Shown in pieces: positions 43,506 through 54,538 of a stretch of 64,000 nucleotides of DNA (its first letter is position 1; every line of letters starts with the position of its first letter). Source of the stretch: Clostridiales bacterium (GTDB lineage: Bacteria > Bacillota > Clostridia > Saccharofermentanales > Saccharofermentanaceae); assembly GCA_017940895.1 (NCBI GenBank), contig JAGAXM010000027.1, positions 1 to 64,000 of the forward strand. Direction: 5' to 3'. The translations under genes were made by a program, and so were the position numbers. The notes beneath the pieces were generated by a model. That model searched no databases and was not told the origin of the DNA. It worked only from the letters and a program-made list of their open reading frames with translations.

Positions 43506-43511
43506 TATTGG

Positions 43512-43788
43512 AAAGGCGCTGAAGGGAAAAAAGATGCGTGTCCCCTGTTAAGAGAGCCGGCGGTTGGTGCGAGACGGTACAGGAAACGTAATGATAAGTC
43601 ATCCCGGAGCCATAAGACTTAAAGTTTATTCGAGTAGGTCTTATCGGGTTCTCCCGTTACAGAGAAAGGTGTTGATAGACACCGCTGAGTGAGGTCCATG
43701 ACCTAAGAAGAGTGGTACCGCGGAAATAAAGTCTTTTCGTCTCTTCTTCGTGCAAGTTAACTTGCTGCGAAGAGGAGACTTTTATTTT
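43512..43788 (+). promoter_or_regulatory. T-box riboswitch, probable valine specifier
   Basis: Transcription-attenuation leader that binds uncharged tRNA. The T-box bulge TGGTACCGCG is at 43713-43722. Stem I shows a kink-turn (GCTGA / GGAGC), the helix GGGA/TCCC (43524-43527 with 43602-43605), the distal AGAGAGCCGGCGGTTGGTG motif and the helix TGCGT/ACGTA. The specifier loop on the 3' strand is ATGATAAGTCA; the triplet just before the last A is GTC (43598-43600), a Val codon. Genes that follow make valine, isoleucine and leucine precursors, consistent with this. Confidence 0.88.
43739..43788 (+). terminator. T-box attenuator terminator
   Basis: A twelve-pair stem (43739-43750 with 43768-43779, one G-T pair) encloses an inner stem GCAAG/CTTGC, followed by TTTTATTTT. 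It forms when charged tRNA does not stabilise the competing antiterminator. Confidence 0.88.
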
Positions 43789-51286: not shown

Positions 51287-51760
51287 ATGGCGGATATAAC
51301 TGAAAAGAGAATTTATAACTTCTACGGATGGCAGGATGCGGATGTGTATCCCTGCGATCCCGCATATAAAAACGCGGGTACACCCCGTGATCTTTATGAT
51401 CTTCTTGACGGTATCTGGTGCAGGAAGACCTGCGCCCCGAGAATGCAGGATGAGTGGAGCGAAGACAACAAGACGCTCGGGCAGTGCTCGATAACGGCTT
51501 TCCTCGTGCAGGATATCTACGGGGGCAAGGTGTACGGCATATTAAGACCCGGCGGGAACTACCACTGTTATAACGATGTTGACGGTCATGTATTCGATCT
51601 GACCTCTGAGCAGTTCGGGGAAGAGGCGGCGCTCCTTGTCTATGAAGGCAACCCCGAGCAGTTGCGCGAGGTGCATTTCGCGAAGGAAGAGAAAAAACTT
51701 CGTTATGAGTATTTAAGAGCGCAGGTGCGAGAAGCACTTCACATAAAGGAGGAGACATAA
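51287..51760 (+). CDS. yunG: YunG-family protein
   Basis: Conserved hypothetical of 157 residues. The YunG core is seen as LGQCSITAFLVQDIYGGKV and YHCYNDVDGHVFDLTSEQF. The conserved Cys and His suggest an enzyme fold but no reaction is known. Start has no Shine-Dalgarno sequence, see the promoter entry. The stop overlaps the DUF815 gene (TAATG), so they are coupled. Confidence 0.8.
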   Translation: MADITEKRIYNFYGWQDADVYPCDPAYKNAGTPRDLYDLLDGIWCRKTCAPRMQDEWSEDNKTLGQCSITAFLVQDIYGGKVYGILRPGGNYHCYNDVDGHVFDLTSEQFGEEAALLVYEGNPEQLREVHFAKEEKKLRYEYLRAQVREALHIKEET

Positions 51761-52956
51761 TGTCGGACGTATTAAGAGAGATATGTTCTCTGGCGATGTT
51801 CCGTAACGTAAGGGAGAAGGAACCCTTAAGAAGCCTTTGCGATTTCCTCCTTAAGATGGGTCCCGGGTTCTCGATGGAAGAGATGATCGACAGCTACGGT
51901 CATTTCGTATCCGTGCTGTATGAGATGAGAGCCGATGCGGATCTGTCCGCTGCCATCTGGGATACTCTGTCGGAGGATATGAACCCGTACCTTCGCCACA
52001 GGATAGATTCCATAATACGTCCCGATGAGGCGCCGAAGGCAAGTTCTCTTATGAGACTTACGGCAGAGCGGGAGCTCGATCTTCTTACGAGGATCGGAGG
52101 ATATACTTCGTTCGACTTCAAGGACGCGATGGTCTATGACGGATATCTTCCTGATTTCAGAACATCGAATATTGACTTTAAGAAACGATACATGACAATG
52201 ATGGATCAGATCGAGTCGAAGGGATACGGCATCTATGCGAAGTATCACTTCTTCCGTATCAAGGAAGGAAAGCTTGTTCCTGTCACGTCTCCCGATCCGA
52301 TCAGCGTAGATGATCTGTTCTGCTATGAGAAGCAGCGCGGACGCGTCATCGAGAATACAAGAAAGTTCTCGGAAGGAAAGCCTTTCGAGGATGTGCTCCT
52401 GTACGGCGATGCGGGTACGGGCAAGTCATCTACGGTCAAGTCGGCAGCGCGAATGTTTATTGATTCCGGCGTGCGCCTTGTTGAAGTTCCGAAGACTGAG
52501 CTTCACGGCTTGTCAGAGATAATCGAGATGCTGATGCAGATACCTTTAAAGTTCATCATTTTCATCGATGATGTTTCTTTCGACGCGGATGACGACAGGA
52601 TAGGTACGCTTAAGTCCGTGATCGAGGGTGCGGCTTCGGGTGCGCGTAAGAACATCGCGATCTATGCGACGAGCAACAGGCGTCACATGATCAAGGAGAC
52701 TTTCTCCGCGCGTGAGAATGAGATACATACATCTGATACGATCGCAGAGCAGATGAGCCTGTCCGAGAGATTCGGTATCAGGATCCTGTTCGATAAGCCT
52801 AACAAGGATACGTACCTTGAGATCGTGAAGGGCCTTATGAGACTTCGCGGAGTTACAATGGATGAGGATAAGCTGTCTGTCGCTGCGGAGCAGTTCGCGA
52901 TAAGAGGCGGCGGCAGGTCTGCGAGGATGGCCAGACAGTTCGTTGATTCTTTGTAA
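51760..52956 (+). CDS. DUF815-family AAA ATPase
   Basis: ATPase of unknown role, 398 residues. An N-terminal helical part of about 190 residues precedes a AAA module with Walker A GDAGTGKSSTV, Walker B KFIIFIDDVSF and a sensor-like ATSNRRHM block. The family is widespread in Clostridia and Proteobacteria without a defined substrate. Coupled to yunG. Downstream is the gene-poor region. Confidence 0.88.
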   Translation: MSDVLREICSLAMFRNVREKEPLRSLCDFLLKMGPGFSMEEMIDSYGHFVSVLYEMRADADLSAAIWDTLSEDMNPYLRHRIDSIIRPDEAPKASSLMRLTAERELDLLTRIGGYTSFDFKDAMVYDGYLPDFRTSNIDFKKRYMTMMDQIESKGYGIYAKYHFFRIKEGKLVPVTSPDPISVDDLFCYEKQRGRVIENTRKFSEGKPFEDVLLYGDAGTGKSSTVKSAARMFIDSGVRLVEVPKTELHGLSEIIEMLMQIPLKFIIFIDDVSFDADDDRIGTLKSVIEGAASGARKNIAIYATSNRRHMIKETFSARENEIHTSDTIAEQMSLSERFGIRILFDKPNKDTYLEIVKGLMRLRGVTMDEDKLSVAAEQFAIRGGGRSARMARQFVDSL

Positions 52957-52984
52957 GAATCCTTTGCCACAGTTTTAACTAACT

Positions 52985-53150
52985 TTATTAAATCTTAGGT
53001 AACACATGCCCCCGTGTGCGGGTGGTAAGATAAAACCATCAAACAAACAAGTCACGAGAAAGGGGTGAGACCGATGTACGAAGAGCAAGATGTGACGGGA
53101 CTTAGGTCTCGCACAATGATTACCTCCTAAAGGATTTGGTTTTATTTCTT
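52985..53150 (+). ncRNA. Candidate structured RNA in the gene-poor stretch
   Basis: The 270 bases between 52957 and 53229 have no gene longer than 20 codons. Inside are stems ATCTTA/TAAGAT (52992-52997 with 53026-53031) around a hairpin CCCG-TGTG-CGGG (53011-53022), a long-range stem ATAAAACCA/TGGTTTTAT (53030-53038 with 53137-53145), and GAGACC/GGTCTC (53067-53072 with 53105-53110). Near the 3' side TTACCTCCTAA (53120-53130) resembles the 16S anti-Shine-Dalgarno sequence. A strong terminator follows at 53176. Alternative pairings exist, strand is inferred, and no known RNA family was matched. Confidence 0.4.
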
Positions 53151-53175
53151 TAACATATAGGCATTCTACATAAGA

Positions 53176-53205
53176 AAAAGGGAACTTCGATCGAAGTTCC
53201 CTTTT
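53176..53205. terminator. Perfect 30-base palindromic terminator
   Basis: Fifteen base pairs without mismatch, flanked by T-rich sequence on both strands (TTTTCTC on +, TTTTTCTTAT on -). It can end the DUF4190 gene on the - strand and any + transcript from the left. Confidence 0.85.
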
Positions 53206-53229
53206 CTCATTTGTTGTTGTGACTTTCTA

Positions 53230-53544
53230 TCAGCCGAGGAACTGAGAGTAGTCGATAGGGTTGATGGCATTGTAGATGATACCGATAACCCAGATGATGC
53301 ATCCGATGATACCGAGGATCAAACCTGCTGTAGCCTTACCGGACTGATTGCCCTTGTTCTTTGCTGTGATAGCAAGGATGATAGCTGCAACAGCGCAAGG
53401 TCCGCAGCAGACAACGCCGAGGATACCTGTAACCAAAGCTGCAGTAGCCTGACCGTTACCTGCATCAGAAGAGGGAGCGTCGTTGTTCCATGTAGGCTCC
53501 GGCTGCTGATAGTACTGGGGTGCTTCGTTATTATTGTTATCCAT
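53230..53544 (-). CDS. DUF4190 small membrane protein
   Basis: Protein of 104 residues with a hydrophilic N-terminus (Asn/Gln/Pro-rich, about 35 residues) and two hydrophobic helices. The block ALVTGILGVVCCGPCAV and AGLILGIIGCIIW are typical of DUF4190/TM2-like proteins. The ATG at 53544 is preferred because AAGGAGA lies nine bases before it. Ends in the palindromic terminator. Pairs with the DUF2752 gene upstream. Confidence 0.8.
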   Translation of the reverse strand: MDNNNNEAPQYYQQPEPTWNNDAPSSDAGNGQATAALVTGILGVVCCGPCAVAAIILAITAKNKGNQSGKATAGLILGIIGCIIWVIGIIYNAINPIDYSQFLG

Positions 53545-53599
53545 GCACAATAATCTCCTTCCATGAAATTATTTGTAATATATCATAAATAAATGATGT

Positions 53600-53971
53600 T
53601 TACCATGAAAACAGGATACGTAAAACGCCGAATGTGCAAAGAAGAACTGCGAAGATACTGATCAATATGACATTTCCGCGCGGGATATCCTTGCCGGATT
53701 CGTGTCTGTAAAGCATGTAAATGATCTCGCATACGACCAGCGGCCACGTGAAAAACAGGAACTGGTTCTCCTTGTAAGCCCCCGCGAAATCAAGATGAAG
53801 AAGGTCGATGATCATGTGTGATATACCGCATGAAGGACAGCGAAGACCGGTTATCTCACGGAAGGCACAGGGAATCCCCCAACCGGTGAACCTGTAGATC
53901 AGATAATATACAAAGCCTATAAGAAGGATAATGATCACATCGCGGATCGTTTTTTTCCATGCGTCAGTCAT
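53600..53971 (-). CDS. DUF2752 small membrane protein
   Basis: Protein of 123 residues with about three helices and the motif LRCPSCGISHMIIDLL that defines DUF2752. The Cys pair suggests metal or redox binding, but nothing is known. Its ATG has no ribosome site; TATAAT on the - strand (53978-53983) places the expected transcript start at the A of the ATG. DUF4190 and DUF2752 genes often sit together. A + strand -10 TATAAT at 53985-53990 for the next gene lies beside it. Confidence 0.8.
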   Translation of the reverse strand: MTDAWKKTIRDVIIILLIGFVYYLIYRFTGWGIPCAFREITGLRCPSCGISHMIIDLLHLDFAGAYKENQFLFFTWPLVVCEIIYMLYRHESGKDIPRGNVILISIFAVLLCTFGVLRILFSW

Positions 53972-53984
53972 AGAACGATTATAG

Positions 53985-53990
53985 TATAAT
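53985..53990 (+). promoter_or_regulatory. -10 box of the yfcE-like gene
   Basis: TATAAT 30 bases before the ATG at 54020, back to back with the - strand -10 at 53978-53983. No clear -35 on either strand. Confidence 0.4.
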
Positions 53991-54019
53991 CAATGGATAA
54001 AAGCATTGGAGTTTGTTTT

Positions 54020-54538
54020 ATGAGGTTTTTGGTCGTTTCCGACATTCACGGCGACAGTTACTGGGCGCAGCGCGCAGTAGAGGTCTATGAGCAGGAGGGC
54101 GCGGACAGGCTGGTGCTTCTGGGCGACATACTGTACCACGGTCCCCGTAATGATCTTCCGGCGCATTACGGGCCCAAGAAGGTGATAGAGATCCTTAATC
54201 CGCTTGCAGGTAAGATCCTTGCCGTAAGAGGCAACTGCGAGGCGGAGGTCGACCAGATGGTCTTAAAGTTCCCGTGCATGGCTGACTACATCTACCTTGT
54301 AAGCGGAGACGTTACTTTTTTCTTTACACACGGGCACACATATAACAGTGAGAACCTGCCGGCGCTCATAAGCGAGGGTACGGTCTTCATCTCGGGACAT
54401 ACGCATGTCACGAAGGACTGCAAGATAAACGGCATAAGATTCATGAACCCCGGTTCGCCTTCGATACCTAAGGAGGGAAGCAAGCCCTCTTACATCGTGA
54501 TCGAAGACGGCACTGCCGAGTTAAAGGAGTTTACATAA
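54020..54538 (+). CDS. YfcE-family metallophosphoesterase
   Basis: Calcineurin-like phosphodiesterase (172 residues). Metal-site blocks are VSDIHGD, LLGDILYHG, GNCEAE and SGHTHVT. ATG 54020 is preferred to 53993 because TTGGAG lies eight bases before it and 53993 would precede the transcript start. The substrate is unknown in this family. Three bases separate it from the hydrogenase gene. Confidence 0.88.
   Translation: MRFLVVSDIHGDSYWAQRAVEVYEQEGADRLVLLGDILYHGPRNDLPAHYGPKKVIEILNPLAGKILAVRGNCEAEVDQMVLKFPCMADYIYLVSGDVTFFFTHGHTYNSENLPALISEGTVFISGHTHVTKDCKINGIRFMNPGSPSIPKEGSKPSYIVIEDGTAELKEFT

Follow-up and report, generated by a model that had tools for sequence, protein, structure and literature searches.

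A structured spacer in a rumen clostridial genome probably encodes an independent, self-silenced small mRNA

The spacer between a DUF815 AAA gene (51760-52956, + strand) and a DUF4190 gene (53230-53550, - strand) on contig JAGAXM010000027.1 of a Clostridiales bacterium raises the question of what kind of RNA, if any, is made there. By the window we mean the whole 64,000-nucleotide stretch that was analysed. A sequence-only reading had seen in the spacer an orphan structured RNA, possibly an independent regulatory RNA. The elements that it named lie where it placed them, the palindrome at 53176-53205 being perfect over 30 bases, and the region is indeed structured, with a fold of -66.9 kcal/mol versus -48.3 kcal/mol in dinucleotide shuffles (z -4.31, 0/200 as low, terminator included). 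The unit is not a non-coding orphan: an 18-codon ORF with its RBS, at 53074-53130, had been missed, and a small ORF is present in all 72 copies of the unit that we counted. What survives of the regulatory RNA is an independent structured unit, as judged by sequence, which carries a small ORF with an RBS. We regard it as probably a self-silenced small mRNA, with a promoter and a terminator of its own and translationally silent by default. The spacer contains, in order, a TAACACA box, an extended -10, a short leader, the RBS, the 18-codon ORF, a U-rich tail, and the palindromic terminator, with the following positions.

52999 to 53007, + strand: upstream promoter box GTAACACAT, at about the -35 position, with a presumed promoter role
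53023 to 53031, + strand: extended -10 TGgTAAGAT, from which the transcript would be expected to start at about 53037-53039
53059 to 53065, + strand: RBS AAAGGGG, invariant or nearly so across 10 subfamily members
53065 to 53072, + strand: 5′ strand of helix P1, GTGAGACC
53074 to 53130, + strand: 18-codon ORF MYEEQDVTGLRSRTMITS, stop TAA, of 18 codons in 10/10 subfamily members
53105 to 53112, + strand: 3′ strand of helix P1, GGTCTCGC, inside the ORF
53120 to 53127, + strand: in-ORF anti-Shine-Dalgarno sequence TTACCTCC, of which UUACCUC can pair with GGGGUGA at 53062-53068 (read off the sequence)
53136 to 53151, + strand: U-rich 3′ tail TTGGTTTTATTTCTTT, which can pair with 53059-53074 (16 pairs, many of them G-U)
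53176 to 53205, + strand: perfect 30-base palindromic terminator, probably serving both converging units

A BLAST search with the region against 85 genomes of the genus yielded 10 close relatives, a number that includes the window's own genome, together with two weak matches, one of which (L026) looks like chance and lies on a different contig from the counted copy of that genome. In all 10 the locus is flanked by a DUF815 and a DUF4190 gene, and the ORF has exactly 18 codons, beginning M/V-Y-(D/E)-(D/E). A first model, R1, made from the window's subfamily and including the long-range stem, matched the same 10 genomes only, so a broader pattern and models were used. The pattern (RBS, start, and partner strand) matches 23/85 genus genomes and its reversed control none; on broader genome contigs it picks out 111 stretches, many in unrelated phyla and probably due to chance. 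Model R2 matches 64/85 genus genomes at E up to 1 and 59/85 at E up to 0.01, and outside the genus 1/103 genomes of the order, weakly, a genome that model R3 did not confirm. R3 itself matched 10 of 25 genus genomes, seven of them weakly, and 0/30 genomes of other genera in the family, a search run without a positive control. Taking R2, R3, synteny, and the pattern together, we count 72 copies in 70/85 genomes of the genus, usually one per genome, which leaves 15/85 without a counted copy.

Several features of this count bear on how it is to be read. R2 and R3 include P1 and hence lean towards it. The copy in G028 was missed by both models and entered by synteny only, and that seen in G098 was left out as its leader is broken in the assembly. 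Six copies with weak scores (E 0.05-0.35; G017, G075, G077, G079, G086, and G096) were accepted by eye for their RBS, start, acidic residue, and terminator (except for contig or scan failure). Comparisons of P1 variants, codons, terminators, and tail matches cover 67 copies; RBS:ORF energies, ORF features, and promoter and motif counts cover 72; RBS:3′UTR energies cover 71, as G095 has a run of N; and neighbours were compared at 52 loci. G011 and G022 each carry two units in tandem (L025, minus strand, and L252), every copy with its own promoter.

The covariance check against Rfam that had been proposed was carried out and returned no match at the window or at the loci of 11 relatives. With gathering and relaxed thresholds alike nothing credible appeared, the best relaxed E-values coming from microRNA models that score the terminator palindrome. 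Phage and plasmid collections gave no match to the unit, and a literature search on Saccharofermentans small RNAs and riboswitches gave no paper titled on this RNA. Elsewhere in the window, a T-box leader is recognized at 43510-43747 (+ strand; Rfam RF00230, 108 bits).

The view that the spacer is not an ordinary leader is borne out. No + strand ORF of at least 60 codons starts between the terminator and 53993; in the window the terminator is followed by a convergent gene, and across the family the neighbours vary. The largest group lies in a YceG-peptidase U32-AI-2E transporter neighbourhood, with a U32-type gene at 28/52 loci, an anthranilate synthase gene is downstream at 8/52, and DUF815 is the neighbour in the window's subfamily and some others (Pfam names taken from one locus each). 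A Trp-attenuator idea suggested by the anthranilate synthase loci was dropped because 6/8 of these ORFs have no Trp codon and a terminator intervenes. In G002, G009, G066, G084, G102, and G029, a gene of about 160 codons lies just upstream of the unit; its product resembles the DUF815 protein in the N-terminal, non-AAA portion alone.

The ends of the unit are conserved as well. TGnTAnnnT occurs 5′ of the ORF in 65/72 copies versus 6.7 in shuffles, and an upstream TAACA in 54/72, with the exact TAACACA in 38/72. The extended -10 of the window is absent from the output of a simple sigma-70 scan, and the promoter is assigned here because of its conservation. Downstream of the ORF, 63/67 copies have a stem-loop with a T run at -12 kcal/mol or lower; that of the window is the sole terminator-like site in 52000-54500, a stretch whose shuffles average 1.7. 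Promoter-like box, terminator, and differing neighbours together support a stand-alone transcription unit, as far as sequence comparison can indicate. In the largest subfamilies (e.g., L269) an inverted repeat, TGTCAGAA...TTCTGACA, flanks the upstream box of the promoter, with exact arms in 13/72 copies and looser ones in 31/72; it looks like an operator for some regulator. Many relatives also have a 5′ hairpin upstream of the RBS, seen by eye, with clade-specific sequences (GTTAAG/CTTAAC, ACCTA/TAGGT, GAACC/GGTTC). An antisense reading, in which AGGAGGTAA precedes a minus-strand GTG in some members, was dropped, as start and frame vary between members.

Which of the possible stems matter can be judged from the relatives. 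The nine-pair long-range stem of the sequence-only reading, ATAAAACCA at 53030-53038 with TGGTTTTAT at 53137-53145, is complementary as described, and 97.8% of its cells are paired in the 10 relatives; yet none of its pairs has changed on both sides, so that nothing supports reading it as an RNA stem. Its 5′ arm overlaps the likely -10 (53023-53031) and ends at about the first expected base of the RNA; the complementarity is probably a coincidence with the promoter. The pairings that do find support are two, one between the RBS region and a strand within the ORF, which is family-wide, and one between the RBS and the 3′ tail, in the window's subfamily.

The first of these, P1, joins the eight bases preceding the start codon (GTGAGACC and variants) to a stretch within the ORF that usually lies 31-36 bases past the start. 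All eight pairs form with the copy's own ORF in 59/72 copies (59/67 before the tally was extended; G017, G075, G077, G079, and G096 have no full P1), versus 1.4/67 for shuffled ORFs taken with 12 bases past the stop. The two strands show compensating changes, with matched variants GTGATTCC/GGAATTGC, GTGAGTCC/GGATTCAT, GTGGTTCC/GGAATTAT, GCAAGACC/GGTTTTGC, and GTAAGACC/GGTCTTAC. Nine of the 10 copies with GTGATTCC, GTGAGTCC, or GTGGTTCC pair fully with their own ORF; tried against the ORFs of 53 usual members, these elements pair in 0/530 combinations, and in the reciprocal swap the usual element pairs with variant ORFs in 8/530. The tandem copies also differ by compensating changes in P1 (GCAAGACC/GGTTTTGC and GCAGGACC/GGTTTTGC versus GTGAGACC/GGTCTCAC and GTAAGACC/GGTCTTAC), with the usual element fitting the ORFs of the tandem-copy variants too, via G-U pairs.

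Alignment A4, built from sequence only on 36 diverse copies with members added that models or synteny had found, has 93.5% of P1 cells paired, 19 double-change cells versus 6.1 in shuffles, and a covariation score of 0.335 versus 0.203, with 0/500 shuffles as high in any of the three, although the copies are related, so that such counts are not independent and covariation scores can be inflated. Pairs with a double change (4 versus 3.1; 172/500 shuffles as high) and further pair types (14 versus 11.8; 29/500) are less distinct. An earlier alignment, A3 (26 copies), most of whose members had been picked by the pattern that fixed the helix, gave a covariation count no better than shuffles. The sequence-only reading had staked its RNA on compensating base changes among relatives, and it survives on this point because such changes are present in the wider family, with none within the 10 closest relatives. 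The 3′ strand of P1 occupies all three codon phases across the 72 copies, which points to selection on the RNA.

As an energy, the RBS:ORF duplex has a mean z of -2.24 and p at most 0.05 in 50/72 copies (versus 200 shuffles). In several distant members P1 extends over the RBS, as in G033, where GAGGAGGUGAUUCCAA stands opposite UUGGAAUUGCCUUUUU with 16 pairs, and G075 and G086 have an explicit in-ORF anti-SD, CTCCTCC; CCTCC occurs inside the ORF in 34/72 copies. The window's own P1 is modest, with 8 pairs and a duplex p of 0.05, and in its subfamily part of the 3′ strand can alternatively pair with 53096-53101 in a small hairpin. The string TTACCTCCTAA at 53120-53130, earlier likened to an anti-Shine-Dalgarno sequence, is present, but it consists of the last codons of the ORF (I-T-S-stop) and can pair in cis with the unit's own RBS. 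Its core TTACCTCC is kept in 9/10 subfamily members, G067 having TTGTCTCC.

In the window's subfamily the main partner of the RBS is the 3′ tail. Over the family the RBS:3′UTR duplex reaches p at most 0.05 in 17/71 copies (mean z -0.87, versus 200 shuffles); in this subfamily it is significant in 10/10, with z from -2.5 to -4.5 and up to 16 pairs, and the tail is the minimum-energy partner of the RBS in 9/10. Two of its members, G065 and G073, have a weak ORF partner (z about +0.4) and a strong tail (z -3.3 and -4.1). Among the subfamily members neither structure has a pair that is altered on both strands, and shuffles score equally well; the evidence for the 16-pair RBS:tail helix therefore consists of energies and one-sided changes and not of covariation. 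Since one or the other duplex is significant in 58/72 copies (neither in 14/72, tallied from both lists), hiding of the RBS seems to be maintained while the partner strand changes. This is the strongest evidence for such maintenance, although the tail is also retained in some lineages whose RBS strand has lost part of its match to it.

These observations suggest how the preferred self-silenced mRNA would work. Transcription would begin at the unit's own promoter and end at its own terminator, giving about 170 bases here as judged from the conserved sequence, and the RNA itself would then pair away its RBS and start region, leaving translation silent by default. In most members the partner would be the in-ORF strand of P1, made shortly after the RBS itself. 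The window's subfamily would rely mainly on the tail just past the stop codon (pairing of 53059-53074 with 53136-53151); the in-ORF strands at 53105-53112 and 53120-53127 would pair more weakly or at an earlier stage. The comparisons show that the potential to pair is kept; that pairing silences translation we infer by analogy with known SD-hiding hairpins. The structure would have to be opened, be it by an RNA or protein acting in trans, by trimming at the 3′ end, or by some other signal, after which ribosomes would read the 16-28 codons to a stop usually near the tail.

A different role for the same elements would be a dual-function regulatory RNA, in which other mRNAs are bound through the U-rich tail or CCUCC, the ORF being incidental or else a switch whose translation masks the tail. 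We consider this possible but on the whole unlikely. It agrees with a stand-alone unit among differing neighbours, with a P1 3′ strand found in every reading frame, and with stops that start no more than 12 bases from a tail-like motif (loose pattern) in 61/72 copies, the distance being greater in 3 and unassigned in 8. The tail motif may have another job, because it persists in lineages where the RBS strand (GTGATTCC, GTGAGTCC) no longer matches it fully. However, the full tail GTTTTATTT occurs in only 23/72 copies and is changed in the largest subfamilies, and the RBS, start, and stop are all kept. The stand-alone dual-function sRNAs of the SR1/SR1P type in Firmicutes likewise contain a small ORF, but differ from the unit, whose peptide is not clearly selected and whose RBS would be occluded in cis. 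Its ORF is presumably about half as long as SR1P. Small RNAs that contain coding ORFs are common (PMC5521070).

A plain small-protein gene, with the peptide as product and the hairpin merely tuning its amount, is the doubtful next candidate, and the ORFs themselves speak on both sides. They have an RBS before the start in all 72 copies (67 and 5 added later), start with ATG (70) or GTG (2), and stop with TAA (62), TGA (5), or TAG (5) after 16-28 codons. An acidic residue stands at position 4 or 5 in 70/72, M-x-x-(D/E) being the sole widely kept feature of the peptide, and an SSRQLVSLGS-type sequence is common within subfamilies. Against this, the synonymous share among single-change codons is 0.15, 0.29, and 0.28 in three groups, where 0.25, 0.26, and 0.27 are expected, and is clearly above expectation solely in the five-copy MN group (0.42 versus 0.26); three of the four groups thus have a small excess at most, a result that gives a functional peptide no particular support, as far as a codon test can tell. 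The stop also moves within one subfamily, from 16 to 21 codons. In L039 and L044 (G023 and G074) an early TAG cuts the ORF to 16 codons and the DNA past it is still relative-like, as if the C-terminal codons mattered as RNA.

Since little of the peptide is conserved apart from M-x-x-acidic, either its short N-terminus or the act of translation may matter more than the rest of it. A further step, which we put forward as a speculation with rather little chance of being right, is that translation itself would be the signal: opening of the RBS would let ribosomes reach the stop beside the tail and so change what the tail binds. Evolution would then keep the RBS-hiding fold and a frame ending near the tail, while the hiding strand is swapped and the peptide drifts.

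Self-inhibition of this kind recalls type I toxin mRNAs. Those of the hok and tisB type encode membrane toxins and require processing. In their primary transcripts the RBS is occluded, as it would be in the unit; hok is mentioned also in PMC6733600. In the AapA3/IsoA3 system of Helicobacter pylori, a short toxin mRNA has hairpins that cover its SD while it is being transcribed, and a 3′ segment locks the RNA once it is finished (PMC6733600). That our unit is the messenger of a type I pair is nevertheless very improbable. Its silencing logic would be that of AapA3 and potential SD sequestration extends to the 58/72 copies above, but the peptides are poorly conserved and for the most part polar (hydropathy between -1.07 and 1.13 over 72 copies, with a median of -0.16; -0.67 in the window), antisense -10 boxes do not clearly exceed chance (19/72 versus 13.7 in shuffles; stricter boxes 10 versus 19.1), and the unit is near genus-wide and usually single-copy. 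We have filed it by analogy as working like the AapA3 mRNA and not as a member, because it lacks a hydrophobic peptide and its antisense strand gave no clear promoter signal.

There is little room for mere chance pairing within an intergenic spacer: U-rich tails do pair readily with purine-rich RBSs, and the window's subfamily on its own has no covariation, but compensating changes occur family-wide and promoter and terminator are conserved. An overlooked 6S or other known structured RNA can be practically dismissed, for although Rfam 6S goes uncalled in the window's genome under strict filters, the window has no covariance-model match to RF00013, the relatives' loci match nothing in Rfam, and nine unit-carrying genomes (G003, G006, G011, G015, G017, G022, G028, G030, and G033) have a 6S match on a separate contig, at E at most 0.001 but under the Rfam gathering score.

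In summary, the spacer belongs to an RNA family that has no Rfam match and is present in most of the genomes examined from one genus of rumen bacteria. Annotation would usually overlook the unit, given the shortness of its ORF. If the self-silenced mRNA is the right reading, RBS self-occlusion, well known in toxin mRNAs, would here be found in a gene that is not toxin-like, and as the occluding partner varies by subfamily between a strand of the ORF and the 3′ tail, the family may serve as a natural experiment on the purpose of such folds.
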